In this document: in pieces, positions 1,790-21,482 of the stretch
Layout: each line of letters opens with the position of its first letter
How positions within the stretch are numbered: the first letter of the stretch is position 1
Origin: Bacteroidota bacterium
GTDB taxonomy: Bacteria > Bacteroidota > Ignavibacteria > Ignavibacteriales > Ignavibacteriaceae
Length of the DNA: 37,154 nt
Assembly (NCBI GenBank): GCA_021783875.1
Contig: JAJXTM010000004.1
Location: 1-37,154, forward strand
Direction of reading: 5' to 3'
Position numbers and translations under genes: made by a program
Notes under the pieces: model-generated
What the model saw: the letters and a program-made list of their open reading frames with translations, nothing else
What the model was told of the DNA's origin: nothing
Databases searched by the model: none

Positions 1790-2206
1790 ATGACAAAGCC
1801 ACAAATTTGGGTAGCAGCTTTTCTTGTAATTTTTCTTTTGCTATTTTTACTTGAAAAATCAACAAACAGAAGTGATATTCAGGAAAAAAGTGCTTCTTCA
1901 TCAGCACCTCAAATGGGGCAATCTACTCAAGCCTCCTCTCCACAAGATTTAATGTCAAGTATCGGATGTACTGGCTGTCATGGAACAGATTTGAAAGGTA
2001 CAAAAATGGCTCCCAATATTCACGGTGTAAAAAAATATTGGACTAGAGATAACCTAATTAATTATTTGCGCAACCCAGTCTCCTTTATGTCCTCTGAACG
2101 TTTTAAAAGCTATAGAATAAAATATGAAGTTATGATGCCATCATTTAATAATATTGATGTGAAAAATCTAGGTAAAATTGCAGATTATCTCTTACAGCTT
2201 CAATAA
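1790..2206 (+). CDS. membrane-anchored mono-haem c-type cytochrome
   Basis: A 138-residue protein. Residues ~7-22 (WVAAFLVIFLLLFLLE) form one N-terminal membrane segment or uncleaved signal anchor, followed by a Ser/Gln/Ala-rich linker. A single haem-binding motif CTGCH (about residues 64-68) starts a class-I cytochrome c domain, and the MMPSF near the C-terminus supplies a plausible axial Met. The domain would face the periplasm and carry single electrons between membrane complexes; its partners cannot be identified because no oxidase or reductase gene is nearby. Its last 7 bases overlap the end of the convergent ABC ATPase gene. Confidence 0.85.
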   Translation: MTKPQIWVAAFLVIFLLLFLLEKSTNRSDIQEKSASSSAPQMGQSTQASSPQDLMSSIGCTGCHGTDLKGTKMAPNIHGVKKYWTRDNLINYLRNPVSFMSSERFKSYRIKYEVMMPSFNNIDVKNLGKIADYLLQLQ

Positions 2207-3000: not shown

Positions 3001-3737
3001 TATACCAATTCATTTTGAATTTTATTAAAGTCGGCAAATTCAGATCCTTGATCCAATGAAAAATTATCTATTGAAGTAAATTTAGAAATACTTCTGTTTG
3101 CTAAAAAAGCTATTTCGTGACTAGCTTTTTGAGCAAATTTAATGTCATGAGTAACAAGCAAAACAATATTATTTTTTTGGGAAGCAAATTGTCTTATCTT
3201 TAGCAAAAATAAGTTAGCAATTGCTGAGTCAATGCCTGAAGTAGGCTCATCTAAAATTAAAATTTCTGGTTCATTAAGAAGCGCCAAAACAAATCCGATT
3301 CTTTGAGCCATTCCTCCGCTTACTTCATAAGGAAAAAGCCGAGATAAATTAATTTTATCGGGAAGTAAAAAAAATTTTAATAAACTCTCAATATCAACTT
3401 CATTCTTTGAAAAAATTTTAAAATAAAATTCGAATTTTTTTAAAGGATCAAAACTATTGATTGCATCCTGAAAAACATATTTAATGAAATTTTTTCTAAT
3501 AACTAATAATTCTTCATAAGTTATACTTAACAAATCTTTATTGTGAAAAATCACTTTACCGTTTATTGAATAAAATCTTTTATCAAGTAAACAAGTAAGA
3601 GAATTTATTAGAGTTGATTTTCCTGATCCGTTTGGACCGATAATTGTATAAATCCTATTGTTTTCTAATTTGAAATTTATATCCTTTAGTAAGGTTATAT
3701 TGTTTAGTCTAATTTCATTAATTTTAACATTAAGCAT
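3000..3737 (-). CDS. oligopeptide/dipeptide ABC transporter ATPase (OppD/DppD type)
   Basis: A 245-residue ABC ATPase with Walker A GPNGSGKST, signature VSGGMAQRIGF, Walker B ILILDEPTSG and an H-loop (LLVTHD). The signature has the VSGGMAQR form typical of OppD/DppD. It is shorter than the usual ~320 residues and lacks the classical C-terminal cysteine cluster of Opp ATPases. It is first in a two-gene minus-strand operon, divergent from the binding protein and permease genes by 68 bases, so a shared two-way control region is likely. Import of peptides is inferred; substrate is unknown. Confidence 0.88.
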   Translation of the reverse strand: MLNVKINEIRLNNITLLKDINFKLENNRIYTIIGPNGSGKSTLINSLTCLLDKRFYSINGKVIFHNKDLLSITYEELLVIRKNFIKYVFQDAINSFDPLKKFEFYFKIFSKNEVDIESLLKFFLLPDKINLSRLFPYEVSGGMAQRIGFVLALLNEPEILILDEPTSGIDSAIANLFLLKIRQFASQKNNIVLLVTHDIKFAQKASHEIAFLANRSISKFTSIDNFSLDQGSEFADFNKIQNELV

Positions 3738-5479: not shown

Positions 5480-5485
5480 TACTCA

Positions 5486-6472
5486 ATGAAAAAAGAAATT
5501 TTTATTTTATTAATAAAAAGAATTTTTTCTTCAGTATTAGTTTTGTTTTTATTGATAAGTTTTCTTTTCTTTTTGTTAAGGCTATCGCCGGGTGATCCAT
5601 CTTTAAAATATTTCTCTCCTGATCTAAGTCCGCAGCTTGCTGCAAAAATAAGAGAATCATTTAATCTGGATAAATCATTAATTAATCAATATAGCTCTTT
5701 TTTGTTGAATCTTACGAGAGGTAATTTCGGAATATCTTTTACTTATCGGATTCCGGTATTTTCTGTTATAATGGACTTCCTCCCCTTTACCCTATTGTTC
5801 TCAATTACAAGCTTTATAATTCAGCTTGTGCTCGGATTTTTCCTTGCTTCTTTATCGATTAAAAAAATAAATGGAAAACTAGATAAAGCGATCTCCCAAA
5901 TAAGCCTTATTATCTATGCAGCTCCGACTTTTGTTATTGGAGTTTTGCTTGTTTTAATATTTTCGTCATCTTTAAATATTTTACCTTCATCGGGATTATC
6001 CTCTTTTGAAAATAATTCCTATCCCTTAATTCCAAAACTAATGGATAATTTATCTCACCTAATAATGCCGCTAATTACGCTATCATTGGGTGGAACAGCA
6101 GTATTTTATAAATATTTGCGCGATAATTTTGAAAATGTTTATAACCGTACTTTTATTACATATCTGCGCTCATACGGTATTCCGGAAAAGAACATTTATA
6201 AACAAAATGTAATCCCAAATGCAATAAATCCTCTTATTTCAATCGCCGGAGTTGAATTAGGAATTTTATTTAGCGGGGCTTTAATTACTGAAGTAATATT
6301 TGGGCTGCCGGGAATGGGAAGACTCACTATTAATGCCATCCTATCTCGCGACTATCCTCTAATAATTGGAACTACTTTTGTCTCGGGTGTGCTAGTTATT
6401 ATTACGAATCTTGTAGCAGATATCCTAAAGGTAAAGTTGGATAAACGTCTAATAAAGGGACTTCTTAATTAA
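5486..6472 (+). CDS. peptide ABC transporter permease (OppB/DppB type)
   Basis: A 328-residue integral membrane permease with an N-terminal membrane segment, the family motif RLSPGDPS near residue 30, and several further hydrophobic segments. The cytoplasmic EAA-type loop (YLRSYGIPEKNIYKQNVIPNA) contacts the ABC ATPase, followed by ITEVIFGLPGMGRL, typical of OppB/DppB. It begins 6 bases after the binding-protein stop and ends directly against the next permease gene, so it is co-translated with both. Confidence 0.92.
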   Translation: MKKEIFILLIKRIFSSVLVLFLLISFLFFLLRLSPGDPSLKYFSPDLSPQLAAKIRESFNLDKSLINQYSSFLLNLTRGNFGISFTYRIPVFSVIMDFLPFTLLFSITSFIIQLVLGFFLASLSIKKINGKLDKAISQISLIIYAAPTFVIGVLLVLIFSSSLNILPSSGLSSFENNSYPLIPKLMDNLSHLIMPLITLSLGGTAVFYKYLRDNFENVYNRTFITYLRSYGIPEKNIYKQNVIPNAINPLISIAGVELGILFSGALITEVIFGLPGMGRLTINAILSRDYPLIIGTTFVSGVLVIITNLVADILKVKLDKRLIKGLLN

Positions 6473-7759
6473 ATGAAATACAAATTAAAAAATTGGTATT
6501 TGTTAATTGGTATATGCCTCTTTATTATTGTAATAAAATTTGAGATAATACTTAATACGTACTCCCTTATATTTATTGTTTTTGAGTTATTAATTAAGAA
6601 TTATAAAATTGCAGTTTTGCATTTAGATATGCCCTTAATTGATATGTTCGCCTCTTCAATGCTGATAGTTATTATGCCGGCTATAGCATTTTATTTGAGG
6701 CGAAAATTAAAAATATTGGACACAAAAATTAGTATAACTTCTATTTTATTATTAATCCTTTTGATATTTTTCATTTTTGCTCCTTTAATATCAAATGCTA
6801 ACCCTGACTTTCAAAAGAATTTAAATGAAACGCATTTGCTTCCGCCTTTTAGTTCTGTTGAAGTTGTTCATCTTAAGACAAAACAGATAGTCGGGAATAA
6901 TATTCAAAGCAAGTTCTTTGCCCTGAAATCAAAAATAATTAAAAATTCATTTGATGAAAATATTATACTAGCAGACAGTATGCATTTTGGAAATGAAGCT
7001 GATATTTTTGAAAAAGATGGCAAGTTAGCCTTGCCTAAGGATACAATAGCGAATTCATTTGGGAAGCCGGTTATTTCAAGAATGTTTTATCTCCTTGGTA
7101 CGGACGAATTTGGCAGAGATATTTTTTCAAGATTGGTTTTTGGTGCCAGGGTTTCTCTATTTGTAGGATTTGGCTCTGTTTTAATTTCTCTTTCCCTTGG
7201 TTTAATTCTAGGATTTTTATCCGGTTATTTAGGTGGATTTGTGGATTTAATCCTAAGTAGAATAGTGGATATGTTTTTATCGTTCCCTGCAATATTTTTT
7301 GTAATTCTTATTTTAGCTTTTTTTGGTAATTCTCTTTTATCTGTTATTGTCGTTCTTGGATTTTCCGGCTGGATGAGTCTATTCAAAATTGTTAGAAGCG
7401 AAGTAATTTTAATAAAATGCAAAGATTATTTTATTACAGCTAAAATGGTTGGCTTGAAACCAAATAATCTATTAATTAGAGAAATTTTGCCTAATATATT
7501 ATCACCCATTATTGTAAATCTGGTTTTTCAGTTCGGGGCTGTAATTTTGGCTGAAGCTGCGTTGAGCTACCTTGGGCTTGGTATTGGTAATTTATATCCA
7601 TCTTGGGGAGCAATGATTAATTCCGGTCAAAATTATTTAAACCAAGCCTGGTGGATGATATTGTCTCCAGGGCTATGTCTAATTTTAACAATTTATACAG
7701 CAAATGATTTAGGAAGAAAGTTGAACTTATATTTTAATCCGCGATTAAATAATGGTTAA
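6473..7759 (+). CDS. peptide ABC transporter permease (OppC/DppC type), N-terminally extended
   Basis: A 428-residue permease; usual family length is about 290-310. The family core is clear: LLGTDEFGRDIFSRLVFGAR, EAA loop (MVGLKPNNLLIREILPNIL) and LSYLGLGI near the end. The extra length has two parts: ~90 N-terminal residues with about three hydrophobic segments before the usual first membrane helix (ILLLILLIFFIFAPLI), and a longer-than-usual periplasmic segment of ~100 residues between that helix and GTDEFGRD. The ATG follows the previous stop without a gap. The last 8 bases overlap the start of the kinase gene, which ties kinase synthesis to the transporter. Confidence 0.9.
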   Translation: MKYKLKNWYLLIGICLFIIVIKFEIILNTYSLIFIVFELLIKNYKIAVLHLDMPLIDMFASSMLIVIMPAIAFYLRRKLKILDTKISITSILLLILLIFFIFAPLISNANPDFQKNLNETHLLPPFSSVEVVHLKTKQIVGNNIQSKFFALKSKIIKNSFDENIILADSMHFGNEADIFEKDGKLALPKDTIANSFGKPVISRMFYLLGTDEFGRDIFSRLVFGARVSLFVGFGSVLISLSLGLILGFLSGYLGGFVDLILSRIVDMFLSFPAIFFVILILAFFGNSLLSVIVVLGFSGWMSLFKIVRSEVILIKCKDYFITAKMVGLKPNNLLIREILPNILSPIIVNLVFQFGAVILAEAALSYLGLGIGNLYPSWGAMINSGQNYLNQAWWMILSPGLCLILTIYTANDLGRKLNLYFNPRLNNG

Positions 7760-10700
7760 TGGAAGATATATAATTAAAAAGAAAATTGGGGAAGGACGAA
7801 GCAAAGTTTTTCTTTGTAATGATTCAATATTTCCCGGAAATGATTTAGCTATCAAAATCTTATCTGACAAATGTGAGGAAACTGAGTGCATATTATTTAG
7901 AAATGAATACTTTACTTTGCGGAAACTGAATCATCCTAACATTATCAAAGCCAATGACTTTGGTGTTGTATCTAATTATTCGGGGAAAGAAGATATTTCA
8001 ATAGGTTCATTATTTATAACTATGGAATATTTTAATGGGGAAGAACTTTCTAATATTAAGTTATTTTCTAACTATGACTTCCTTATAGATATAATAAAAC
8101 AACTTTGTTCTACTCTTTATTATCTCCATCAATCAAATTATATCTATTTTGACCTAAAACTCGAAAATATTTTAGTGTCCGAAAACAATGATAAACCGGT
8201 TATTAAATTAATTGATCTTGGTTTCGCACAAAATATATTTAAAATGAATGAAAATGTCATAAGAGGCACAGCTGAATATATCGCTCCCGAAATATTGCGC
8301 AAAGATAATTATGATTATAGAGTTGACTTATATTCATTAGGTATTTTATTATATAAAATTGTTTATGAAGAATTTCCGTTTGATACAAAAGATGAACTTG
8401 AAATATACAAAGCTCACTTAGAAAAAGAATTTAAATATCCTCCGACAAATTATGCAGATAAGTTCATAAATGTTATAAAAAAGTTATTGACAAAGAATCC
8501 CGATGAAAGGTTTCAGAATGCTATTGAAGTAATATCAGCGTTAAATTTGCCCATTGATCAGACTCTATACAGGGACTGGGTACCGGCTAGGGTATTTTCC
8601 GATAGAACCGATATTTTAACAATAATAAATACTTTTTTTGAAGATAATCTAAGTAATGAGATAATTACAATAAGAGGCTCCCAGGGTTCCGGAAAATCAT
8701 CTCTTGTTGAAGAAATATATTATTGTTTCGAGAAAGTGATATTAATTAAAAATAATAAAACTAAAACAGGATTAGAATACATAAAACTATTTTTAAGCCA
8801 AATAATCTTCAATAAGTTTGTCTATGAAATACTATCTCATAATATTTTGGAAAAGGTGGATGAAATATTTAATGCCTTATCTAAGGATTTAATGGCAGAT
8901 TTAAAAATAATATTTACTTCAATTTCAATGCGTATCAGACTTACTATTGTGTTGGACGATTTTAATTCTTATGACGGGTTGGCCCTCGAAATGTTTAGAA
9001 ATATAATTCCGATTTTTCAGATAAATAAAATTAAAGTTATACTTACTGAAAACTCAGATTTAAATTATTTATCAGAATATTTTTTTAATTTGCACAAAAT
9101 AAGCCTAAATCCGTTCACAGGAAATAATGTCGAGGAGTTCGTGACCTTAAGTTTCAACAATAAATTTCCTCAAAGTGACTTAAAAAAATTGATTTTAATT
9201 TATGCCGACTTACTGCCAGGGAATATTATATCATTTATAAGAGATATTATATATCTTCAAATTATAGAGTTTAAATCTACAGGGATTACTGTAAAAACAA
9301 ATGAAAAAGATGTTTCAATTTTAAAAAAATCGCAGGCGGAAATCTTTAATTTGCGACTTAATGGATTATCCAAGGAGGAATTGGAAATAACCAAATTAAT
9401 CTCGGCTTTTAATATTCCTTTGGAAATTCCGGTAATTTCAAAATTAACCAACTTATCATTTGAGTTGGTAACATCAAATGTTTTTGATTTACAGCAAAAA
9501 AATATTTTGCAGCATTATAATAGAAATGAAGGTATTGCCTTTACTTCAGAGGGAATGAAAAAATATGTATATGAAAAAATTGAAGACCCCATTAATTACC
9601 ACGTGAAAATAACCGATAAGTTAGAAAAAGAATTTAAATATTTTAATAAAATTGAAATAGCCAGACATTATGAATTATCAGGGGAATACATTAAAAGCTA
9701 TGAATTATTTTGGAATGAACTAAATTATCCGGAAAATTTATCAGCCTTTTCTTATCAAAAAAATATTCTTTTACATCTGCTCAGTCTAAGACTTAATGAT
9801 AATTATTATTTCGACGTTAAATATAAGCTTGTAAATATTTATTATAAATTGGGAGAATATCAAACCGCTTTAACAATTATAAGCGAACTTCTTGATCAAA
9901 ATAAAAAATATGATTTAAGAAATGAAATTTTATTGTTAAAAGGAGTTTGTTTAATAGGATTGGGAGAAAATGAAAACGGAAAAAATTGTTTAAACGAACT
10001 TTTACCGTCTATTATAGATAAAACGAAGCAACAAACAATTCTTGCCGAAATTGCAAGCGCTGAGTTTGAAATGAATAAATTTGAAACAGTTATTCACATT
10101 TGCAATTCTGTTATTGCAAATTCTTCTAGCTTGCCGGAAGATATAGCCAAATGCTTTAATATGTTAGGACTTATAGGGCTATTTCGGAATGATATTTTGA
10201 AGAATTCAATAGTATATTTTGAAAAGGCTAAGAAAATTTATGAAGAATTAAAAATACCAACTAGAATAGCTCAAATGAATGCTAATATAGGGATAATTTT
10301 TAATATTCAAGGGGATCATGAAAGTGCAAAAAATTATTGGACAATTGCACTGAAAGCCAATGAAGAAATAGGCAATCTGGAACAAGAAGGGAAACTTCTA
10401 ATAAATTTTGGTATTTATTATTATGAGAAATTGTTTTTTTCTGATGCTATCGATTATTATAAAAAAGCTGTATCTATTTTTTCAAATATTGGGGATAAAT
10501 TTGGAGAAGCCCAAGCTCTGGAAAATTTGAGTGAAGTATACTTATTTACTTGTAATTATCAAGAAGCACTTAGCTCTATAGAAAATTCTATTTTGATCTT
10601 TTCAAAATTAAAATATTTTATAGAAGAACTTTTTGCTCAGTTTTTACTTGCTAAATTGATATATATAATTGGTGATTTTAAATGGGTTTCTAAAATTATA

Positions 10701-11315
10701 GGAAATGTCTATCCGGTACTTTGGAAAGAATCAACTCCAGAAAAAAACAGAACACAATTATTATATTTATTGGAACTTGAAAATGCTGCTTCAAGTTTCT
10801 CTGCTACAAAATTAGATTCTCTTCTTTCTCTTCAATCTAAATTCTTTGAACAAAAAGATATGATACATTATTTTTCCATTACGATCCTTATTGTAGAATT
10901 TCAAATCTCATCCAATAGAATAGAAGATGCCCTTGCAGCACTTACAACTGATATTATAAAAAATTTGATTAAAGAAAATGCAATGATTTTTGCTGAGCAA
11001 AAATATATGCTGGGGAGAATATGCAGCATTAAATCAAATGAGAACTTTCTTTCACCGATTGAATATTTTCTGTCTGCTTTTGATGCAATTAAAGAGTTTT
11101 ATATTACTGAGCTGACATGGAAGATATTGTTTGAACTGGGATGCGCTTATTATCAAAGAGGTAATTACGGTAAAGCGAAAGAAAATTTAATCTATTCGAA
11201 AGAAATTATTAATTATTTCGCCGATTTAATTAAGAATAAAAAATTACGCGAAACATATCTAAATAGACCTGACCGTCAAAGCACATTGAAAAAAATTAAA
11301 GAAATGGGAATTTGA
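7752..11315 (+). CDS. Ser/Thr protein kinase-AAA ATPase-TPR signalling protein (PknK-like architecture)
   Basis: A 1187-residue cytoplasmic protein. Residues ~1-270 are a Hanks-type kinase: Gly loop IGEGRSKV, ATP-binding Lys35 (LAIKI), catalytic loop FDLKLEN with Asp134, metal-binding Asp155 (IDLGFA) and APEIL. The usual HRD is YFD, so the RD Arg is absent, but the catalytic Asp remains and activity is plausible. Residues ~290-570 are an ATPase module with P-loop GSQGSGKSS (309-317) and VLDDFN as Walker B. From ~650 to the end are TPR-like helices (YKLGEYQTALTIISELLD; NLSEVYLFTCNYQEAL). PknK and related STK-ATPase-TPR proteins couple input to transcription. The gene overlaps the permease by 8 bases and the sigma54 activator by 4, placing it between transporter and regulator; that it controls the activator is an inference. 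Confidence 0.88.
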   Translation: MVNGRYIIKKKIGEGRSKVFLCNDSIFPGNDLAIKILSDKCEETECILFRNEYFTLRKLNHPNIIKANDFGVVSNYSGKEDISIGSLFITMEYFNGEELSNIKLFSNYDFLIDIIKQLCSTLYYLHQSNYIYFDLKLENILVSENNDKPVIKLIDLGFAQNIFKMNENVIRGTAEYIAPEILRKDNYDYRVDLYSLGILLYKIVYEEFPFDTKDELEIYKAHLEKEFKYPPTNYADKFINVIKKLLTKNPDERFQNAIEVISALNLPIDQTLYRDWVPARVFSDRTDILTIINTFFEDNLSNEIITIRGSQGSGKSSLVEEIYYCFEKVILIKNNKTKTGLEYIKLFLSQIIFNKFVYEILSHNILEKVDEIFNALSKDLMADLKIIFTSISMRIRLTIVLDDFNSYDGLALEMFRNIIPIFQINKIKVILTENSDLNYLSEYFFNLHKISLNPFTGNNVEEFVTLSFNNKFPQSDLKKLILIYADLLPGNIISFIRDIIYLQIIEFKSTGITVKTNEKDVSILKKSQAEIFNLRLNGLSKEELEITKLISAFNIPLEIPVISKLTNLSFELVTSNVFDLQQKNILQHYNRNEGIAFTSEGMKKYVYEKIEDPINYHVKITDKLEKEFKYFNKIEIARHYELSGEYIKSYELFWNELNYPENLSAFSYQKNILLHLLSLRLNDNYYFDVKYKLVNIYYKLGEYQTALTIISELLDQNKKYDLRNEILLLKGVCLIGLGENENGKNCLNELLPSIIDKTKQQTILAEIASAEFEMNKFETVIHICNSVIANSSSLPEDIAKCFNMLGLIGLFRNDILKNSIVYFEKAKKIYEELKIPTRIAQMNANIGIIFNIQGDHESAKNYWTIALKANEEIGNLEQEGKLLINFGIYYYEKLFFSDAIDYYKKAVSIFSNIGDKFGEAQALENLSEVYLFTCNYQEALSSIENSILIFSKLKYFIEELFAQFLLAKLIYIIGDFKWVSKIIGNVYPVLWKESTPEKNRTQLLYLLELENAASSFSATKLDSLLSLQSKFFEQKDMIHYFSITILIVEFQISSNRIEDALAALTTDIIKNLIKENAMIFAEQKYMLGRICSIKSNENFLSPIEYFLSAFDAIKEFYITELTWKILFELGCAYYQRGNYGKAKENLIYSKEIINYFADLIKNKKLRETYLNRPDRQSTLKKIKEMGI

Positions 11316-12697
11316 ATTTGTCCTCCAAAGATAAAATACAAATAAAAATATTTTCGGATATTAAAGATGTTTCTTCTATTAGTTCATCTGTTAACCAGCT
11401 TGTGCTAAAAAAAATGAATACACACTCTTCCTTTCCAAAAATTTTTGAAATTTTACAGAATGAAATTATTATAATTCAAATAAATAGTATTCAATCAAAG
11501 TATCTTAATAAAGCACTCGAAGATAAAAATAATCTAAAAAATAAGATAATATTTGTAACTCAAAATAATGATGCATTGTTAATAAGTTCATTAGTTAAAC
11601 TCGGATACAGTGACATATTTATATTTCCCTATGAATTATATAAATTCATTTCCTATATTAATGAAATAATAACTACTCGTTCCTATATTACCGAAGAGTT
11701 TTCGCCTGACAACTCCGAGAAAAGATTTGACGATTTTAAATCTTTAATTGGAAATTCCAGTCATTTCGTTAAAGTTATTGAACTTGCCAAAAAAGTTGCA
11801 GTAAAAAGTGATTCCAATATTATAATACTAGGAGAAACAGGAACAGGCAAGGGGCGCCTTGCAAAAGCAATACACATGTTCAGCGAAAGAAAGGATTCGC
11901 CATTTGTGGATATTATTTGTAATGCTATTCCTGAAAGTTTATTGGAATCGGAACTTTTTGGATATGAACCGGGCGCCTTTACTAATGCAAAAATACGGAA
12001 ACTGGGGTTGTTCGAAATTGCTGGTAAGGGTACACTTTTTCTGGATGAAATAGGCGACTTATCTCTAAATATTCAATCCAAGCTTTTAAGAACCATAGAA
12101 CGAAAAATTATTAGAAGACTTGGAGGAACAAAAGATATTTCTATTAATGCACGGATATTATCTGCCACAAATAAAAATTTAACTGAAATGGTGGAAGATA
12201 ATTTATTTAGAAGAGACCTTTACCACCGGCTAAATGTAGTCTCCCTGGAACTCCCTCCTTTAAGGTCACGTGGTGAAGATGTTCTGTTATTAGTTGAAGA
12301 TTTTATAAATGAGTTTAACTTACAGTTTAATAAAAAAATTAAAAGTATTGAAAAACCTGCTAAAGATTTTATTTTGCAATATCAATGGCCCGGAAACGTT
12401 AGAGAACTTCGAAATGCAATCGAAAGAGCAGTTCTACTTAGTGAAAGCAATACAATAAAACTAAATGATTTTTCTAATCTTTTATTTACTGAAAATTCAA
12501 AAAATGATTTACCTAAGAATGAAATTGATTTAATGCCTCAACATATCAGACTTGAATTTAACTATTTTGACACCGACCTTAAAAAAGTTTCAAAAGAATA
12601 TGCTAAAGAAATTCTTTCCAAAATGAACGGTAATAAATTTCGTACTTCTAAAATCCTACGAATTTCTCGCCCAACACTGGATTCTCTTCTAGAATAA
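11312..12697 (+). CDS. sigma54-dependent transcriptional activator with degenerate receiver
   Basis: A 461-residue bacterial enhancer-binding protein. Residues ~8-125 fold-match a receiver (IIIIQINS, IIFVTQ, LVKLGYSDIFIFPYEL) but the phospho-acceptor Asp is replaced (Gln/Asn in IIIIQINS) and the conserved KP Lys is Phe, so Asp phosphorylation is unlikely. The central AAA+ domain has Walker A GETGTGKG (174-181), ESELFGYEPGAFTNA with the sigma54-contact loop GAFTNA at 221-226 (consensus GAFTGA), Walker B DEIGDL and RRDLYHRLNV. A Fis-type HTH (GNKFRTSKILRISRPTLDSL) closes the protein. The TTG start shares bases with the kinase TGA stop (TTGA), a coupled arrangement. Sigma54-like promoters lie just downstream before two genes, its likely targets. 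Confidence 0.9.
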   Translation: MNLSSKDKIQIKIFSDIKDVSSISSSVNQLVLKKMNTHSSFPKIFEILQNEIIIIQINSIQSKYLNKALEDKNNLKNKIIFVTQNNDALLISSLVKLGYSDIFIFPYELYKFISYINEIITTRSYITEEFSPDNSEKRFDDFKSLIGNSSHFVKVIELAKKVAVKSDSNIIILGETGTGKGRLAKAIHMFSERKDSPFVDIICNAIPESLLESELFGYEPGAFTNAKIRKLGLFEIAGKGTLFLDEIGDLSLNIQSKLLRTIERKIIRRLGGTKDISINARILSATNKNLTEMVEDNLFRRDLYHRLNVVSLELPPLRSRGEDVLLLVEDFINEFNLQFNKKIKSIEKPAKDFILQYQWPGNVRELRNAIERAVLLSESNTIKLNDFSNLLFTENSKNDLPKNEIDLMPQHIRLEFNYFDTDLKKVSKEYAKEILSKMNGNKFRTSKILRISRPTLDSLLE

Positions 12698-12747: not shown

Positions 12748-12764
12748 TTGGCATGTTGCTTGTA
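12748..12764 (+). promoter_or_regulatory. candidate sigma54 (-24/-12) promoter of the ZU5-like lipoprotein gene
   Basis: TTGGCATG-TTGC-TTGTA matches the sigma54 consensus TTGGCACG-N4-TTGCW, with the GG and the second element at the correct 10-base spacing; the -12 element is GT instead of GC. Predicted transcription start is near 12775, leaving a ~25-base leader with a good TAGGAG ribosome site before the ATG at 12801. The adjacent upstream gene encodes a sigma54 activator. Confidence 0.65.
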
Positions 12765-12800
12765 TGATAATGTGCATATTCATTAAGCAATTAGGAGTTA

Positions 12801-13358
12801 ATGGTGAAAAAAATTATACTTTCTTTGTTTGCTATAAGTATATTCTATTTAGGCTGCTCGGATCTAAAAACAAATATGAACCCCGTCAATTCTGCAGTCA
12901 GTTCGAAAACAGCAATAAAATTGCCTCTAAAAAGCGGGGTTAATATAGAATCTGTTTTCTCAGCGAGTCAATTAATTTCCGGAGAAAATGGCGGTTCGGT
13001 TCAGCTGCATGAAAGCTATATCTCCGGTAAAACGCAAGTTACAATAGATGCAGAACTTAGCGTTCCTATTGGCGCATATAGCGGTACCAAAAATATATCA
13101 ATGCAAATAGGCGATGATGCTGCTATTGATTTTTCGCCGACATCATTATTTAATATTCCATTAGTATTGAATCTAAAAATAACAGGAGTTGATTTAACCG
13201 GAATCAATCCTAACGATATAAACTTTTATTACTTTGCCCAAGATGGTTCAGTTTCTTTGGTTCAAAATGACGGAATAACAATTGTCCCACAAACCGGAAC
13301 ACTGGAAATAATTAATGCAAAATTACCGCATTTTTCAAGATATGGCTGGGGGAAATAA
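12801..13358 (+). CDS. secreted lipoprotein with ZU5-like domain
   Basis: A 185-residue protein with a lipoprotein signal (IILSLFAISIFYLGC, lipobox Cys about residue 19). The rest has the hallmarks of a ZU5-like beta domain: GGSVQL, LSVPIGAYSG, IDFSPTSLFNIPLVLNLKI and the closing LPHFSRYG. Such domains occur in isolated lipoproteins of Bacteroidota-group bacteria; no biochemical role is assigned, though surface display or protein contact is likely. The start is supported by TAGGAG 6 bases upstream. It lies 103 bases after the sigma54 activator gene and has its own candidate -24/-12 promoter, so it is probably a regulated output gene. Confidence 0.72.
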   Translation: MVKKIILSLFAISIFYLGCSDLKTNMNPVNSAVSSKTAIKLPLKSGVNIESVFSASQLISGENGGSVQLHESYISGKTQVTIDAELSVPIGAYSGTKNISMQIGDDAAIDFSPTSLFNIPLVLNLKITGVDLTGINPNDINFYYFAQDGSVSLVQNDGITIVPQTGTLEIINAKLPHFSRYGWGK

Positions 13359-13456
13359 AAAAGTTTGCTGACTTATCCCTCATAACATTGAGCGGGAATC
13401 TATGAGAAAATAATATTTCTTTTGATTCTCGCACAATTCTTTATTTAATAAATTGA

Positions 13457-13487
13457 AAATAAATGTAAAAAATTTTTACATTTATTT
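13457..13487. repeat. 31-base near-perfect palindrome; candidate enhancer site
   Basis: Two perfect 15-base arms, AAATAAATGTAAAAA and its reverse complement, flank a single central base. It lies 86 bases upstream of the candidate sigma54 promoter at 13573, the distance usual for enhancer sites of sigma54 activators. It has no following T-tract, which argues against a simple terminator, although an AT-rich terminator of the lipoprotein transcript is an alternative. Confidence 0.5.
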
Positions 13488-13504
13488 AAAAATTACCATC
13501 TTAA

Positions 13505-13537
13505 TAAAGTAAATTTTACCGCTTCCAAATTACTTTA
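13505..13537. promoter_or_regulatory. inverted repeat TAAAGTAA-N17-TTACTTTA
   Basis: Perfect 8-base arms at 13505-13512 and 13530-13537, about 36 bases upstream of the -24 element at 13573. It could be a second binding site for the activator or another regulator; unlike the palindrome above it shares no sequence that I can align with the 12698-12747 region. Confidence 0.35.
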
Positions 13538-13572
13538 CTATAATTATTGATACAAAGACTAATATTCAGGTA

Positions 13573-13588
13573 TGGCATAATCGTTGAA
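13573..13588 (+). promoter_or_regulatory. candidate sigma54 (-24/-12) promoter of the tandem-repeat protein gene
   Basis: TGGCATAATCGTTGAA fits TGGCACG-N4-TTGCW with correct GG-N10-G spacing; the -12 element is GA instead of GC. It closely parallels the promoter at 12748 (TGGCAT-N5-TTG-W-A in both). The predicted start is near 13599, 41 bases before the ATG at 13640. It lies inside the over-long ORF of the track, which supports the shorter start. Confidence 0.6.
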
Positions 13589-13639: not shown

Positions 13640-14179
13640 ATGTCAAAATCTATTTTCACCTTATTGTTATTGGGAGTCTTTGTTATTGCAGTGCAAGCTA
13701 AAGACCCAATTCAAAAGAATAACATTGAGAAAGCCACTCGCTATCAGGTTATTCAAATTAATCGCACTGTTGAGTTTAATAATGTTACCCGTACAACGAC
13801 GAGAACTAGCGAGATTAGAACCAGAACATTTGTTGATAATTCATCTGCTCAGGTAGGTAATCTTGGAAGTTCTTATGGATACTCAAAGTCCAATAGCCAA
13901 GTAGGTAATCTTGGAAGTTCTTATGGATACTCAAAGTCCAATAGCCAAGTAGGTAATCTTGGAAGTTCTTATGGATACTCAAAGTCCAATAGCCAAGTAG
14001 ATAATCTTGGAAGTTCTTATGGATACTCAAAGTCCAATAGCCAAGTAGATAATCTTGGAAGTTCTTATGGATACTCAAAGTCCAATAGCCAAGTAGATAA
14101 TCTTGGAAGTTCTTATGGGTACTCAAAATCCAATAGCCAAGTAGATAATCTCGGTAGCTCATACGGCTATTCAAAGTAA
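13640..14179 (+). CDS. secreted tandem-repeat protein (16-residue repeats)
   Basis: The start is taken at ATG 13640 (MSKSIFTLL), with GAGGGA 4 bases upstream, rather than 13547 in the ORF track, because a promoter candidate lies between them and the signal peptide (IFTLLLLGVFVIAVQAK) begins here. The product has 179 residues. A ~50-residue Thr/Arg-rich stretch (VTRTTTRTSEIRTRTF) is followed by seven copies of Q-V-G/D-N-L-G-S-S-Y-G-Y-S-K-S-N-S, the last cut after SYGYSK. Regular Gln/Asn/Gly/Ser/Tyr spacing recalls fibre-forming or amyloid-like repeats such as curlin, but the curlin consensus is not met; function is unknown. It is probably exported. Confidence 0.75.
   Translation: MSKSIFTLLLLGVFVIAVQAKDPIQKNNIEKATRYQVIQINRTVEFNNVTRTTTRTSEIRTRTFVDNSSAQVGNLGSSYGYSKSNSQVGNLGSSYGYSKSNSQVGNLGSSYGYSKSNSQVDNLGSSYGYSKSNSQVDNLGSSYGYSKSNSQVDNLGSSYGYSKSNSQVDNLGSSYGYSK
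13850..14176 (+). repeat. 48-bp in-frame tandem repeat, 6.8 copies
   Basis: Six 48-base units plus a 39-base seventh encode the 16-residue repeat. Units 1-3 have GGT (Gly) and 4-7 GAT (Asp) at the third codon; units 1-5 are otherwise almost base-identical, unit 6 has a few silent changes and the last has many (CTCGGTAGCTCATACGGC), suggesting recent expansion from older edge copies. Copy number could vary by slippage without breaking the frame. Confidence 0.95.
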
Positions 14180-14242
14180 TTAATTTAAATTTTAATGGAT
14201 GGGGGATTTTATTACAATAAATTTGTAAAGATTTGTAAATTA

Positions 14243-14269
14243 ATGCCTGCAAAATAAATTTGCAGGCAT
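14243..14269 (+). terminator. probable rho-independent terminator after the repeat protein gene
   Basis: An 11-bp perfect stem (ATGCCTGCAAA / TTTGCAGGCAT) with a 5-base loop, 64 bases after the stop. The tail (ATTTATAAATT) is only moderately T-rich, so termination may be partial and some reading into the next gene is possible. Confidence 0.65.
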
Positions 14270-14295: not shown

Positions 14296-17200
14296 TTGGC
14301 TAAAATTATTCGACAATGTTCTTTACCTGGTATAAGACGATTTTTAGTTCAGATTTTAATATTTTTTTTTATTTTTATTTTTGCAGTAGATGCTCATAAT
14401 AAATGGCGCGAAATGAGAAGCCAAAATTTTAAATTAATTTATAAGGAAAATTATTCGTATTTGGCACCGCACATTTTATACTCTGCAGAAAATGCTTTGA
14501 AATCTTTAGATAGCATTTTTAACTATACTCCATCAAACAAAATAGTTATAATTGCTTATGATTTTGATGATTATGGATTTGGCGCGGCAACTACCCTTCC
14601 TCGAAATGAAATACAATTAGAAATTGAACCCTTTGAACCTGGTTATGAGAACCTTCTTTATACAGATAGAATACAATGGACCTTAAGCCATGAATTAGTT
14701 CATATTGTTGTGGATGATAAAACAGCTGGTTTGGAAAAATTTTTACGTAGTTTATTCGGGAAAGTTACACCAGAACAAATTAATCCGCTTACTATATTTT
14801 ATAGCTTATTGACTAACTATAATCGTTATACACCACGTTGGCATCAAGAATCAATTGCAGAATTTTTTGAGACTTGGTCTAATGGCGGTTTTGGCAGAAT
14901 GTTAAGCAGTTTTGATGAAATGTATTTTCGTGATATTGTTGTTGAAGAGAAGTGTTTTAAATCTCCCTCTGAACTAGAAAATCTATCAAATACTTCATTT
15001 CTTTTAGGAACAATCTATTATCTCTATGGAGAGAGATTTGCAGCGTATTTAGTGCAACATTATGGACCTGAAAAATTGATTTCCTGGTTTAATTCTGATT
15101 CTTCCGGTTTTTATGAAAATTTCATTTCAAAATTTAATAAAAATTATAGAATTGGCTTTGATAAAGATTGGGATGAATACTTTGGGACAAATTTTTATAA
15201 AGAATGGAATAATTTTTTAACTTATGAACAAGAATTCCAAGAAAAAAATATTCAGAAAATAAAATCCGCTTCTCTTTCACCAGTCAAGAAAATTACTCAA
15301 AAACCATTTGGATGGGTAACTCAGCCTTTTTTCAATTCACGAAATGGTAATATATATTTTGGCTGCAATATGTCGGGATATCTGGCATCTATCCAAAAAT
15401 TAAATTATAAGAATGGAAAATCAGAAGTTGTCTCCACTTTACCTACACCAAGTCTCTTGCAAGTTTCTTCAGTAGCTTATGATAATAGTCTTAATCTTTA
15501 TTTTTATACTACAAATAACAATGAACTTTACCGTGATATTTGGGTTATGGACTTAAATAATCGTAAGTCAAAAGAATTATTTAAGGATTATCGAACGGGC
15601 GATATTACAGTCTCGTCTTCAACTCATGAACTCTGGGGGATTCAGCATGATATCGGAAGCGTATCTTTAATGTACTCTTCCTATCCATATAAAAAGCTTG
15701 AACCCTTAATTGATTTTGGTTTAGACTATAACATTTTTAATTTATCTGTAAGTCCGGACGGTAAAAACCTCGCTGCAGTTATGCACAAAAATAATGGTGA
15801 ACAATCTTTAATAATCATCGATTGTGATAATCTAAAATTGACAGGAAAATTTAATTTTAAGACAATCACCACCGGTGGGTCACCTGAAAATCCCTCTTGG
15901 AGTCCTGATAGTAAAAATCTTTTTTGGGATTCTTATACAAATGGTGTCTCAAATATCTATCGCGATAATTTTGAAGATTCATCAATAGAAGTATTATCCA
16001 ATACACTAATAGGTCTATTTAAACCTATATACCTTAATGCAGACACTTTATTTGCTTTTGAATATTCATCTGATGGATTTGTGCCGGTTTTAATTCCGAA
16101 TAAAGCAATTGATGAACTTCCTGCTATTAATTATTTTGGCGAAAAGCTGTTGAAATATTATCCAAAGATCACGAATTATTTGTTAAATTATAATAATACT
16201 AATATAGATACATCTGACTTTTCCATTAGCGAGAATTATAATGGTATTTCAAATTCAATTATTCAGACATTTATTCCTGTTATCTCCGGTTTTCAGACAG
16301 AAAAGGTCTTGGGTTTTTATACTCATATTGCAGATCCTATTTATTTTAATGATTTGACGATGGAATTTGGCTACTCTCCTTTCAATGATAACATTGGCTT
16401 ACCAAGATTTCATTTCAAGGGGAAATACGAATTCAAGAAAGAAATTGAATTAGATATAGATTATAATGCCTCGGATTTTTATGATTTGTTTAATGATAGA
16501 AAACGAGGCATGATCGGAACAAGAATTGCTTTAGCCGATACTTATTATTGGATTTATGATAATCCATTAAAAATTAAACAGAAAACAGAAGTGGATTATT
16601 ATAGCGGGATAAAGTCAATAAATGATAATTTGATAAAAGTTTCTCAATCCGATTTTACTTTTGCTCAGACTAATTTTAATTCTAAAAACTTGCGTAGAAG
16701 TATTGGAAGTGTTGATTATGAAGAAGGAAATGAATATAATTTTACACTTCTAGGATTTGGTGCCGGTGTCAGCAAGATTCAACTTGCCGGCGAGGTTTAT
16801 GGAGCTTGGGATAACTATTCAATATTTATTTTTCCGCATAATATTTTCCACTTAAAATTTGCTGCCGGATATACTCAAAAGAATCAAAATCTTGAGCAAG
16901 CTAATTTCTATTTCGGTGGCTTTGGAAATCGAGCATTGGAAGATGTTCCCGTAAAACAATACCGGGATGTCTTTAGGTTTCCTGGTATACCAATCTATAA
17001 TTTGTTAGTCAATAATTTCGCCAAAATTCTTCTTGAAAATAATTTTCCCCCTATAAGAATTGACAATATTAGTGTAGGAGAACATTTTTTAAATTATATA
17101 GACATTTCTATTTATACTGAAAATCTAATTAGTGGATCGAATCGAATTAAAAGTTGGAATGATGTTGGAGGTCAAATTAATTTTAATTTTAAACATTGGT

Positions 17201-17307
17201 TTAATTTAGAATCTACTTTTTCTTCGGGTATAGCAAAAGCCTGGTATGGTAAAGATAATGCATGGGATTGGTTTGTGTCTTTTAAACTACTTCAAAATAT
17301 TTTTTAA
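14296..17307 (+). CDS. surface zinc peptidase (MA clan-like)-TolB propeller-outer membrane barrel protein
   Basis: A 1003-residue secreted protein with N-terminal signal (FLVQILIFFFIFIFAVDA). Residues ~35-300 are peptidase-like: HELVH at 132-136 in WTLSHELVHIVV, with a candidate third zinc ligand Glu185 in WHQESIAEFFE. Residues ~310-600 have PD40/TolB-type propeller blades (LSVSPDGKNLAAVM; NPSWSPDSKNLFW). The remaining ~350 residues are beta-rich, and the protein ends in an aromatic (KLLQNIF), as outer-membrane barrels do. A cell-surface protease or peptide-processing role is inferred. The TTG start is the least certain part; no in-frame ATG precedes the signal. It ends two bases before the TPR gene. 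Confidence 0.78.
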   Translation: MAKIIRQCSLPGIRRFLVQILIFFFIFIFAVDAHNKWREMRSQNFKLIYKENYSYLAPHILYSAENALKSLDSIFNYTPSNKIVIIAYDFDDYGFGAATTLPRNEIQLEIEPFEPGYENLLYTDRIQWTLSHELVHIVVDDKTAGLEKFLRSLFGKVTPEQINPLTIFYSLLTNYNRYTPRWHQESIAEFFETWSNGGFGRMLSSFDEMYFRDIVVEEKCFKSPSELENLSNTSFLLGTIYYLYGERFAAYLVQHYGPEKLISWFNSDSSGFYENFISKFNKNYRIGFDKDWDEYFGTNFYKEWNNFLTYEQEFQEKNIQKIKSASLSPVKKITQKPFGWVTQPFFNSRNGNIYFGCNMSGYLASIQKLNYKNGKSEVVSTLPTPSLLQVSSVAYDNSLNLYFYTTNNNELYRDIWVMDLNNRKSKELFKDYRTGDITVSSSTHELWGIQHDIGSVSLMYSSYPYKKLEPLIDFGLDYNIFNLSVSPDGKNLAAVMHKNNGEQSLIIIDCDNLKLTGKFNFKTITTGGSPENPSWSPDSKNLFWDSYTNGVSNIYRDNFEDSSIEVLSNTLIGLFKPIYLNADTLFAFEYSSDGFVPVLIPNKAIDELPAINYFGEKLLKYYPKITNYLLNYNNTNIDTSDFSISENYNGISNSIIQTFIPVISGFQTEKVLGFYTHIADPIYFNDLTMEFGYSPFNDNIGLPRFHFKGKYEFKKEIELDIDYNASDFYDLFNDRKRGMIGTRIALADTYYWIYDNPLKIKQKTEVDYYSGIKSINDNLIKVSQSDFTFAQTNFNSKNLRRSIGSVDYEEGNEYNFTLLGFGAGVSKIQLAGEVYGAWDNYSIFIFPHNIFHLKFAAGYTQKNQNLEQANFYFGGFGNRALEDVPVKQYRDVFRFPGIPIYNLLVNNFAKILLENNFPPIRIDNISVGEHFLNYIDISIYTENLISGSNRIKSWNDVGGQINFNFKHWFNLESTFSSGIAKAWYGKDNAWDWFVSFKLLQNIF

Positions 17308-17309
17308 TA

Positions 17310-18539
17310 ATGAATTTTAAATTTGAAATATTAAATCAAGTCTTGCCAAATTTTTTTACCGAGAATGAAGTTCTTGAAATTAAAATGAAATTGAAAAGTG
17401 CTTCATTGGTAAAACAAAAATCCGGCATAAAATTAAATAATAATACAAAGTATCTCCTTAAACAAACGCGGATAAATTCCGGCCGCACATATTTTACTCT
17501 TTTATTATCAATTGTAAAATCAAAACTATCTAAATCAAAGCTATCGGAATTTTTATTCGGTTATGGGGAAATACTAATGGCAAATGGTGAATTTGATTTT
17601 GCAAAAGAAGTATTTATTCATATACTAAATCTTACACATTCCGAATTACAATTAGTTAGTCTTCGGGCTTATACACTTTTAACTTTAGGAAATATTTTTA
17701 GCCGCCAGGCTGAATGGGAACAAAGCATTAAATTTATAAAAAACGCAAAAATAATTTTTACTGCCGAAAAAGATTATCGAGGATGTGCAAGATGTGAAAA
17801 TCTTTTAGGAACTATCTATGGCGACAAAAGCAATATTGGAAAAACCAAATTACATTTTGAAAAAAGCCTTTCCTATTTGGATCCCAAAAAAGATTTTGTT
17901 TGGATTGGTATAATTGAAATGAACGTTGGAATCATAAATAGTATTCAAGGGAATTACAATGATGCAATGTCTTATTTTAAAAGAGCATTATTAAAATTTG
18001 AACATGCAAAAGATTTTAGACGAATATCAGAATTAAGGAACAATTTGAGTATTTATTTTATTAACAAGGGAGATTTTAACTCAGCTTTGAATGAGCTTGA
18101 TATTAGCATTGCTCTTCATAATAAAACAGAATTTTTACCAAATTTAGTTATATCATACGTTTCAAAGTCTTATATTTATGCAATTATAAAAGATTATATA
18201 TTTGCGTCTGCTTATATTCAAAAATCAATGAGTATTTGCAAAAAAATAAACGATAGACTTTCTATTGCTGAGTTATATAAGATTAAGGGAATTATATATA
18301 GAAATAAGAAGAAATACTCTTATGCAGAAAAATTCTTTAATGCCAGCCTTAAAATCAATAATGAGTTTGATAACAAAATGAATGAAGCCGAAACCTTTTA
18401 TGAGATGGGTTATTTATATTCAGAAATGGGAAAAAAACCAGAATCAATCCGTAATTGGAAAAAATCACTTCAGTATTATAAAAAGATAAAGCACTCCAAC
18501 ATGATTTCTAAAATTGAATCTTTGCTTAAACCCCATTAA
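17310..18539 (+). CDS. tetratricopeptide repeat protein
   Basis: A 409-residue protein without signal peptide or membrane segment, built of about seven TPR-like helix pairs from residue ~90 on (GNYNDAMSYFKRALLKFEHA; KYSYAEKFFNASLKIN; GKKPESIRNWKKSLQYYKKI). TPR arrays bind partner proteins. It starts two bases after the peptidase stop, so both are made together, and its repeats resemble those at the C-terminus of the upstream kinase. I see no HTH or enzymatic domain, so a scaffold or sensor role is an inference. Confidence 0.8.
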   Translation: MNFKFEILNQVLPNFFTENEVLEIKMKLKSASLVKQKSGIKLNNNTKYLLKQTRINSGRTYFTLLLSIVKSKLSKSKLSEFLFGYGEILMANGEFDFAKEVFIHILNLTHSELQLVSLRAYTLLTLGNIFSRQAEWEQSIKFIKNAKIIFTAEKDYRGCARCENLLGTIYGDKSNIGKTKLHFEKSLSYLDPKKDFVWIGIIEMNVGIINSIQGNYNDAMSYFKRALLKFEHAKDFRRISELRNNLSIYFINKGDFNSALNELDISIALHNKTEFLPNLVISYVSKSYIYAIIKDYIFASAYIQKSMSICKKINDRLSIAELYKIKGIIYRNKKKYSYAEKFFNASLKINNEFDNKMNEAETFYEMGYLYSEMGKKPESIRNWKKSLQYYKKIKHSNMISKIESLLKPH

Positions 18540-18655: not shown

Positions 18656-19963
18656 ATGAAATTTTCTGAGTTTAAGAAAAATATTGACAATCCGGCATCC
18701 GGGAGAATCTCAATTGATGAATCCTCTTCAAAGTCGAAAAACCTCGAGGTCATACTAGATATTGTAAAAATTATTAATCACACATTAATATTAGAAGATG
18801 TATTAAATCTTGTTCTAAAATATTCCGTCAAACTCACTAATTCAGATAGGGGCTTCATCGTATTAAAGAGCGGCCAAGGAAAACTGGAATATAAAATCGG
18901 ACTTGATTCCGCAGGAAACTTACTTCCGGAAAATCTTTTTAATATTAGCACATCTATTGTTGAAGATGTTTTTCGTACCGGTCAATCAAAATTTGTTGAA
19001 GGAGCCCAAAGTGATACAAATTTTGACCCTACCAAAAGCATATTAAATCTAGATCTACAAACAATTCTATGCTCGCCTTTAATATGTGATGACAAAAAAA
19101 TTGGTGTGATTTATGTTGATAGTCGAGATATTCATAAAATTAAAATTAAAGAAATAACCGATACTTTTGAAATCATGGCAGGCCAGGCTGCTACTGCAAT
19201 TAGAAATGCTCAGCTATATAATGGACAAATCTCCGCATACAATGCTCTGAATGAAGCCAATATTCAGTTAATACAATCGGAAAGGAAAGCTTTAAAATCA
19301 AGCATTGATTCTGAAATAGGTCAATCACTTCAAGGATTAGTGCATTTAGCTCTTTTAGAAAATGAAAGTTTAATGAGAGTAATTGAAAAAGCTCAAAAGG
19401 AATATGAAATAAATTCCACTAAAATAGATCCAATTTTATTGGACCGTCTAAATCTTAAATGTAAAGTAGCAATAGATAGTATCAGAAACATTCAGAAGTT
19501 TGCGCAGATACTTCTCGAAACATCAATTATGAATTTAAATAAAGATAGTGGAGACTTAAACAAAACAATTCAATCTGTAATAAAATATATTTCTCCGATG
19601 AAAAAATTTTACAGCATTACTTTTAACACTGAATTTAATCCTTTGCCGCTTTGTAATTATGACTCCGAGCAAATTCAGCATTTATTAGTTCATCTTTTTA
19701 ATAATTGTGCAGAAGTTAAAAGTGATATTACAATAACGGTCAGAACATATTATGAAAACAGCAGTATTTTCGTTCAAGTGAAGGATAATGGACCCGGTTT
19801 CCCGGAAGATTTAATAAATCCTTTCAATGAGATTATTTCTGCAAAAAAAACTAGTTATGGGCTTTATTTATGCAAAAGCATTATAGATAGGCACAATGGT
19901 CAAATAAAAATTTTGGAGCGAACTCAAGGCGCGACTGTACAATTTTCATTACCTGTTAACTAA
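18656..19963 (+). CDS. GAF domain-HATPase signalling protein, phospho-acceptor His not visible
   Basis: A 435-residue protein. Residues ~35-185 are a GAF domain (SDRGFIVLKS, LCSPLICDDKKIGVIYVDS). A helical linker follows, then a histidine-kinase-type ATPase: N-box-like HLFNNCAEV, G1 DNGPGFPED and G2-like YGLYLCKSIID. The canonical H-box (H-E-x-x-x-P) is missing; the corresponding region reads SLQGLVHLALLENES, with one His but no family context. It may lack autokinase activity or use an unusual site. The ATG is 116 bases after the TPR gene, and the next kinase starts 4 bases after its stop, so the two kinases are likely an operon. Confidence 0.85.
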   Translation: MKFSEFKKNIDNPASGRISIDESSSKSKNLEVILDIVKIINHTLILEDVLNLVLKYSVKLTNSDRGFIVLKSGQGKLEYKIGLDSAGNLLPENLFNISTSIVEDVFRTGQSKFVEGAQSDTNFDPTKSILNLDLQTILCSPLICDDKKIGVIYVDSRDIHKIKIKEITDTFEIMAGQAATAIRNAQLYNGQISAYNALNEANIQLIQSERKALKSSIDSEIGQSLQGLVHLALLENESLMRVIEKAQKEYEINSTKIDPILLDRLNLKCKVAIDSIRNIQKFAQILLETSIMNLNKDSGDLNKTIQSVIKYISPMKKFYSITFNTEFNPLPLCNYDSEQIQHLLVHLFNNCAEVKSDITITVRTYYENSSIFVQVKDNGPGFPEDLINPFNEIISAKKTSYGLYLCKSIIDRHNGQIKILERTQGATVQFSLPVN

Positions 19964-19967
19964 TCCT

Positions 19968-21482
19968 ATGACTGATACAATCTTAAAATATTTCAATATC
20001 TTCTATGAATATATTCCTTTTCCCATAGAAATTATTAATGAAGAAGGGAAAATTATATATATAAACGAGTCCTTTTCATTTCATTGGGGTTATAATCTTT
20101 CAGAGATAAATGAATACAGGATATTTAATGATTTGGAATTAAAAAGAAGCGGTGTTCATGATGCAATATTAAAAACTTTTGAGAATCGAGACAAAAGGAT
20201 TGTAGATAATTTTACCGATTCTCTCTTAAAAAGTCGCGATATTATTCTTCCTATTTTTCGAACAAAAATATTTCATATACCTTATGAAGAAAAAAATTTT
20301 GTGGCTCTTTTCCACGAAGATCAGACGGAAATTGTACTGACTGAAGCAGAAGTTAGGAAGGCGCGTGATGGTAATAAAGAAGCCGAAAGGTTAAAAAATA
20401 CTTTTCTTACTGTCTTATCTCACGAACTTAGAACTCCTCTCAACATTATTTTGGGTTATACATCAATAATAAAAGATAGTTTTAAAGATAAAATAAATCC
20501 CGAGGATCAAGTTTATCTGGATAACTTATATAGCGGTGCGCAGAGACTGCACACAAGCATTTCACAAATGCTAGAATTTGCCCAAATCGAAGCTGGTAAT
20601 TTCTCAATAAATTTTGAAAATGTCTCGCTTGGAAATATTATTAAACATTGTATGGATATTAATATCCAAAGTGCTAAAGAAAAGAATTTAGAGGTAAAAA
20701 CAAAATTTTATCCTCAGGAAATTTTGGTATTTGCAGATGTTCAGATTCTTGAAAATGCTATTAATAATATTCTAATTAACGCTCTTAAGTTTACTAAACA
20801 AGGATTTATTGAAATAGAAACAAACATTCTCGATGATAGGGAATTAGCAATTTGCAAAATTAAAGACTCCGGTGTAGGAATTTCAACAAATTATTTAGAC
20901 CATATTTTCCGCCCATTTAGTCAGGAAGATTTAAACATCGGACGGAATTATGAAGGTAATGGTTTAGGTTTGGCTTTAGCAAAAAGGTATATTGAAAAAA
21001 TGGGAGGTTCGCTTCTGGTTGACAGTTTGAAAGGTGTCGGTACAACATTTACATTTACACTCCCCCTGTCGAATAGTTTATTTAAGGGAAATCCGAAAAG
21101 TTTGCAGCCGCTAAATTTAAAGAAAATCTTGATGATTGATAATACAAACGATTCTTCAAATCTTCTAGGTGCTTATCTCAAAAATAAATATGAACTTGAA
21201 ATAATAAGTTTATCAGATTTCAAACTTGAAATAATAGATCGAAAAAATTTCGATTTTATTATTATAGATGTTGATAGGAGTTTTTGGGAGCAATCTTTAA
21301 AAATATCCAGACATATAAAAAAGATAGACCCATTGGAAAGACCGATTGTAATACTATCAAATGAATTTGATGAAGAAAAAACAGAACAGTTTATAAAAGC
21401 TGGTGTAAGTAAATTATTAATTAAACCATTTACCAAAAATGATATATTTAATGCCCTAAATTCTGTTACTCACAAAAAGTAA
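19968..21482 (+). CDS. PAS-histidine kinase-receiver hybrid
   Basis: A 504-residue protein without membrane segments. Residues ~10-120 are a PAS domain ([16 protein letters not shown]). The HisKA H-box SHELRTPLN holds the phospho-acceptor His152, followed by the ATPase: [19 protein letters not shown] and [10 protein letters not shown]. Residues ~385-500 are a divergent receiver: the acidic pair is DN in MIDNTND, but an acceptor Asp (FIIIDVD), Ser (ILSN) and Lys-Pro (LIKPF) remain. It is a soluble sensor kinase, paired with the GAF-ATPase gene four bases upstream. A separate response regulator is not encoded beside it; the nearby sigma54 activator is not a likely target because its receiver lacks the Asp. 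Confidence 0.92.

Follow-up and report, generated by a model that had tools for sequence, protein, structure and literature searches.

A predicted sigma54-controlled locus for two candidate precursors of short peptides in a bacterium of the Ignavibacteriaceae

Introduction

Which genes does the sigma54 activator encoded in this stretch of DNA control, and what do their products do? The window, by which we mean the whole stretch of 37,154 nucleotides that was analysed, comes from a Bacteroidota bacterium of the family Ignavibacteriaceae. It carries, downstream of the activator gene, two intergenic sites that a sequence-only reading had taken for twin sigma54-type promoters in front of two surface genes, both of them assigned to the activator's regulon. 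We have compared this locus with its counterparts in other genomes, the window's own genome (G000) being 80% complete. Our best explanation for the whole, to which we give a probability of about 0.62, is that the two promoters, P1 and P2, drive the expression of two short-peptide precursors within an autoinduced, import-based loop.

Results and Discussion

Two sigma54-type promoters behind an activator gene

The elements around which the question turns are the following:

11312-12697, plus strand: sigma54 activator (EBP) with a Fis-type HTH (Pfam Sigma54_activat, 1e-61; ortholog alignment)
12749-12764, plus strand: P1, sigma54-type promoter TGGCATGTTGCTTGTA, predicted TSS around 12775 (core match, matrix rank and conservation)
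12801-13358, plus strand: lipo, a lipoprotein with the C-terminus HF-SRYGWGK, the heptapeptide codons lying at 13335-13355
13573-13588, plus strand: P2, sigma54-type promoter TGGCATAATCGTTGAA, predicted TSS around 13599 (first of 74,278 positions)
13640-14179, plus strand: rep, a signal-peptide-like N-terminus followed by seven units of 16 amino acids (array 13841-14176), each ending in SSYGYSK

Both sites lie where the sequence-only reading had put them, with a GG-to-G(C) spacing that is right for sigma54, and the C of the -12 GC element is replaced by T in P1 and by A in P2, as that reading had described under the name of local -12 variants. The end of P1 is 36 bases away from the lipo ATG (12801), and that of P2 is 51 bases away from the rep ATG (13640). 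Within the window, the exact core TGGCAT-N5-TTG (TGGCATNNNNNTTG) is limited to these two places, in keeping with the earlier remark that no comparable match was seen in the other intergenic regions, with 0.34 occurrences expected and at least two copies present in 6 of 100 shuffles. At the scores of P1 and P2, a generic sigma54 matrix yields 0.7 and 3.1 chance matches per window, so that the raw sequence of the two sites is unconvincing on its own; this matrix was discarded as the only judge of the sites, its result not being significant. Further intergenic TGGCAY-N5-TTG sites occur in the same genome, before genes that resemble by eye flgB, a polysaccharide chain-length gene and kdpA.

The strong evidence for P1 and P2 comes from the comparison across genomes. 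An independent matrix, trained on 21 orthologous sigma54-type sites that all lie outside the window's clade, ranked P2 first (17.3) and P1 second (16.1) among 74,278 positions, the next best score being 11.7. The genome encodes rpoN (PF04552, E 1.2e-60), a gene on whose presence the sequence-only reading had made its proposal depend. A sigma54-type site follows the 3′ end of the activator gene, before the next gene, in nearly all orthologous loci with downstream sequence. For genes preceded by a gap of 100 bp or more, the sigma54 pattern occurs before 9 of 11 lipo genes and 11 of 13 rep genes at activator loci, 8 of 17 lipo genes elsewhere and 2 of 152 control genes; a sigma54 match was absent in three rep genes away from activator loci. 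The core of P1 is kept in the sister genomes G006 and G008, 52-54 bp before the start codon and between diverged flanks, while P2 is aligned in G006 and G009 and present in G008.

That both matches arose by chance, lipo and rep being transcribed from ordinary vegetative promoters, is therefore very improbable. The chance expectation of the generic matrix and a TATGATAAT string overlapping P1 would agree with such an origin, but it clashes with the phylogenetic footprint and with the enhancer-like element found at fixed spacing (see below), and G006 does not retain TATGATAAT. For this lack of conservation, a sigma70 reading of P1 based on the string was rejected. P2 is almost certainly a sigma54 promoter, and P1 is quite likely to be one as well.

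An enhancer-like element and the reach of the activator

Between lipo and P2 there is a pair of palindromic elements:

13465-13479, plus strand: UAS1, a GTAA-N7-TTAC palindrome, 108 bp upstream of the -24 element of P2, with near-fixed spacing in orthologs
13509-13519, plus strand: UAS2, GTAA-N3-TTAC, 64 bp upstream of the -24 element of P2, with its spacing also seen in orthologs

In the orthologous loci, the offsets of UAS1 and UAS2 from the -24 element are mostly 105-109 and 61-65 bp. Of the 25 genomes that encode an activator ortholog, 15 have the UAS pair together with the TGG pattern, as against none of the 34 genomes that lack an ortholog, and in the window's genome the pair occurs once. 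On the grounds of this linkage and co-occurrence, the activator is predicted to bind the UAS. The large secreted protein encoded behind rep has an unlinked homolog in G008 (L092, C147:97160-97270) that carries the same UAS pair and a TGGCATAGCGGTTGGC site, an arrangement that marks a regulon. As judged from these sequence features, the adjacent activator very probably serves P2, and for this promoter the regulon assignment of the sequence-only reading is supported.

For P1, the same assignment is less secure, as this promoter has no UAS in G000 and G006 and lacks UAS1 in G008. The odds that the adjacent activator serves P1 seem to us even; the promoter may use the UAS from downstream, respond to another activator or be a relic. 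Slightly short of even is the chance that P1 lies outside this activator's control, either under another of the 12 or so activators or as a relic, with lipo co-transcribed with the activator gene. The missing UAS, the 12 strong sigma54-activator genes of the genome and an activator-lipo gap of only 103 bp all agree with this independence of P1, but not so the -24/-12 core and start distance, which are kept in three genomes amid diverged flanks, nor the fact that the UAS could act on P1 from about 700 bp downstream.

Orthologs of the activator are present in 24 relatives, with 44-72% identity, and their alignment shows conserved Walker A and B motifs in the AAA+ domain and a conserved HTH. The sigma54-contact loop reads GAFTNA here, GAFTSA, GAFTDA or GAFTQA in orthologs, and GAFTGA once (G030); a variable fifth residue in this loop (N, S, D, Q or G) is unusual for functional activators. 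The receiver-like N-terminus shows no conserved Asp in the ortholog alignment, and Pfam finds no Response_reg domain in it, so the activator does not carry the phospho-acceptor Asp of the NtrC type.

A conserved neighbourhood of importer, kinase and TPR genes

The activator, lipo and rep genes are flanked by the following genes:

2200-3737, minus strand: ABC ATPases ABC1 (2200-3000) and ABC2 (3000-3737), open reading frames divergent from the importer operon
3806-7759, plus strand: Opp-type peptide importer, composed of an SBP (3806-5479) and permeases (5486-6472 and 6473-7759)
7752-11315, plus strand: soluble Ser/Thr kinase with AAA and TPR regions (Pfam Pkinase, 1e-42; TPR_12)
14296-17307, plus strand: large secreted protein with a HELVH-type putative metallopeptidase motif and a TolB-like propeller (ORF, Pfam, NCBIfam)
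17310-18539, plus strand: TPR409, a cytoplasmic TPR superhelix
18656-21482, plus strand: GAF histidine kinase (18656-19963) and hybrid histidine kinase (19968-21482), from Pfam, kept in the cluster

The importer proteins match the NCBIfam models Opp4A, Opp2B and Opp4B below the curated cut-offs, and homologs of ABC1 and ABC2 in other genomes adjoin SBP/permease and lipo-TPR genes. The kinase gene overlaps both the last permease gene and the activator gene; its product has conserved kinase motifs and no strongly hydrophobic stretch of 19 residues. In relatives, the importer genes are likewise found upstream of the kinase, and the order permeases, Ser/Thr kinase, activator, and then lipo and/or rep is kept, often continuing with the large secreted protein, TPR409 and histidine kinases. 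TPR409 has lipo or rep as a direct or close neighbour in most loci, with one gene in between in the window. In genomes of another family in which no activator ortholog is present, lipo and TPR409 are adjacent or close and occur with the importer in rearranged order (G043, G048, G052, G055, G057 and G058), the kinase being included in several of these loci. This recurrence of lipo, TPR409, importer and kinase in a different arrangement indicates a module rather than a mere neighbourhood. This activator is missing from some of the genomes that have lipo or rep, and one locus of G031 (L070, contig C40) has three TPR409 and four lipo genes behind a single activator, with sigma54-type sites before some of them.

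One heptapeptide in two unrelated proteins

The C-terminus of lipo and the end of each rep unit share the same heptapeptide form, of the type S-x-aromatic-x-aromatic-x-K/R. Among the 16 genomes with both genes, the lipo and rep heptapeptides are identical in 10 and differ by one mismatch in three more. The heptapeptide is genome-specific: the shared versions are SRYAFAK (two genomes), SRYAFAH, SRYIFAK, SRYAFAQ, SRFGFIK, ARYGFTR, SRYGWAT, SRYGFLR and SRYGFTR. When rep was shuffled among genomes, 0.75 matches were obtained on average and 10 were never reached in 200,000 trials, a figure that ignores kinship; when only the window's genus is considered, with its five genomes that match exactly, our own arithmetic gives 2 in 120. 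In G047, two heptapeptide variants occur in rep and both are also found in lipoproteins of that genome. Gene conversion as the source of the shared heptapeptides is disfavoured by their codons, which differ between lipo and rep at 2-7 of 21 nucleotides. The window's own clade is the exception, with SRYGWGK in lipo versus SSYGYSK in rep in G000 and similar pairs in G006 and G008, the two heptapeptides differing by 3-4 residues throughout this clade. In G009 (L052), where no lipo was detected, rep consists of eight SSWGYSK units, with SRYGWAK, of the lipo type, as the last unit; an array with both unit types suggests two peptides in this clade.

The rep array is made of seven tandem 48-bp repeats, and its units are exactly 16 amino acids long, with up to 16 copies elsewhere. 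They are near-identical in protein while their synonymous sites have diverged (pS 0.60 and pN 0.04 in G012; 0.40 and 0.02 in G005), and purifying selection acts on the repeats. An antisense ORF of 145 amino acids (13815-14252, minus strand) crosses the repeats and is probably a by-product of them. We dropped a reading of rep as a RiPP in view of its N-terminal export-type signal and because no modification enzyme was recognised in an informal look through the window ORFs.

Regarding lipo, the C-terminal HFSRY is invariant in 12 aligned members. The structural model (pLDDT 82) is all-beta; HFS sits between the final two strands, and the C-terminus forms a beta strand. The best match in a fold search was the GAIN-containing receptor CD97, a weak one (E 0.0098, TM 0.25), which leaves self-cleavage at HF/S only a lead. 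Pfam ZU5 reached E 0.064 in one of the 12 members, below significance, and an assignment of lipo to ZU5 was abandoned, as neither the Pfam nor the PDB sequence search gave significance. Variants in G024 and one G015 copy keep the heptapeptide without HFS, which points to the heptapeptide as the conserved part. In the G024 variants (L175 and L195), GGARYGFTR or DGARYGFTR stands at the end in place of HFSRYGF, matching the rep unit of that genome, ARYGFTR.

An exact, genome-specific heptapeptide shared in 10 of 16 genomes makes lipo and rep better read as precursors of short secreted peptides. The sequence-only reading had called them surface genes; peptide precursors are preferred here over ordinary surface genes.

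Two other roles for the heptapeptide have to be weighed. It could be a C-terminal tag, in the style of PEP-CTERM or LPXTG, recognised by a sorting or processing machine for export or anchoring. We consider this improbable: a genome-specific C-terminal motif on unlinked lipoproteins would be expected of such a tag, but not its repetition up to 16 times inside rep, nor the residues that follow it in some lipoproteins, and the related C-termini that a search of five genomes returned were those of lipo and rep alone, apart from two matches that look unrelated. The second possibility, unlikely but less so, accepts the sigma54 promoters and takes rep and lipo for structural envelope proteins, in which the heptapeptide would be the docking motif for a shared partner in the envelope, with rep as a multivalent scaffold or adhesin. 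Export-type signals on both proteins and a modelled lipo C-terminus that could be structural, as a beta strand, are compatible with it, and so is the preference of sigma54 for genes of the bacterial exterior (PMC3162934). However, a role in the envelope would leave unexplained both the conserved linkage to genes for peptide import and for cytoplasmic TPR proteins, kept also in other families in rearranged order, and the near-identity of the repeats despite strongly diverged synonymous sites.

A candidate peptide-signalling loop

Peptide signalling remains the reading that we moderately favour, and it would work as follows. The sigma54 activator (11312-12697) would bind the UAS pair (13465-13519) and turn on P2, which would drive rep and probably also the genes behind it. 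Rep, once exported, would be split into numerous copies of the heptapeptide, and the C-terminus of lipo would release a related heptapeptide, perhaps through cleavage at HF/S. The Opp-type importer, whose genes immediately precede those of the kinase and the activator, would then take up the heptapeptide, which in the cytoplasm may be sensed by TPR modules, those of the kinase and/or TPR409. The kinase would in turn control the activator, closing a positive loop; that it does so by phosphorylating the activator is a guess from gene linkage.

To our knowledge, such peptide signalling has not been described in this group of Gram-negative-type bacteria, and our search of the literature on this lineage together with sigma-54 or peptide quorum sensing returned nothing relevant. 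We give slightly better than even odds to the system being an undescribed one, in which two unrelated precursors carry the same genome-specific heptapeptide and are combined with a dedicated Opp importer, TPR readers and autoinduction through a TPR kinase and sigma54. If true, import-based TPR peptide communication would be wider than known, reaching beyond Firmicutes, its new elements being an output through sigma54, a Ser/Thr kinase and a pair of unrelated precursors for one peptide. The heptapeptides can be read directly from the genomes, so the idea is testable at once with synthetic heptapeptides.

Comparison with known systems

The regulatory part of the locus resembles the NtrC/NifA type in its rpoN, its AAA+ activator with a Fis-type HTH, its -24/-12 promoter and its palindromic UAS some 80-135 bp upstream of the predicted start. 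It departs from that type in having GAFTNA, GAFTSA or GAFTDA instead of GAFTGA in most members, a receiver-like domain without the conserved Asp, and a Ser/Thr kinase gene as partner rather than an adjacent histidine kinase. Lipo, for its part, recalls the autoproteolytic ZU5, GAIN and Nup98 domains (HF/S, HL/T) in its all-beta fold and in the position of HFS, between the two final strands, whereas its profile and fold matches are weak and some members lack HFS.

Enterococcal sex pheromones are short lipoprotein-derived peptides imported by an Opp system, but they come from the signal peptide of the lipoprotein, while the candidate here is the mature C-terminus. The yeast alpha-factor precursor carries tandem identical copies of a peptide in one exported precursor, as rep may do, in an unrelated organism and with unrelated processing and receptor.

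A parallel in logic is found in Firmicutes, where the RRNPPA systems carry out import-based peptide quorum sensing with TPR receptors (PMC9765709, PMC10075063). The RRNPP/RRNPPA systems (Rap-Phr, PlcR-PapR, NprR, AimR) combine an exported propeptide, Opp import and a cytoplasmic TPR receptor, for all of which there are candidates here. The model of TPR409 is a TPR superhelix (pLDDT 89), and peptide-bound RapF and a phage Rap are among its fold matches (TM of 0.70 and 0.69, normalised to target length); TPR superhelices are generic, and LGN and other TPR proteins obtain better E-values, so this likeness is compatible with a Rap-like receptor, not diagnostic of one. By sequence, TPR409 matches general TPR-type models only and belongs to no Firmicutes receptor family, for which reason we do not file the system as RRNPPA. 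Some exported propeptides of RRNPP systems are multi-copy, with up to six copies reported (PMC9765709), versus up to 16 in rep. The present locus also differs in occurring in another kind of bacterium, with the TPR gene beside a lipoprotein and a repeat protein, no HTH on TPR409, no homology detected by sequence, and a sigma54 and Ser/Thr kinase output. By analogy, then, the module is best read as comparable in logic to the RRNPPA systems of Firmicutes, and as standing outside that family.
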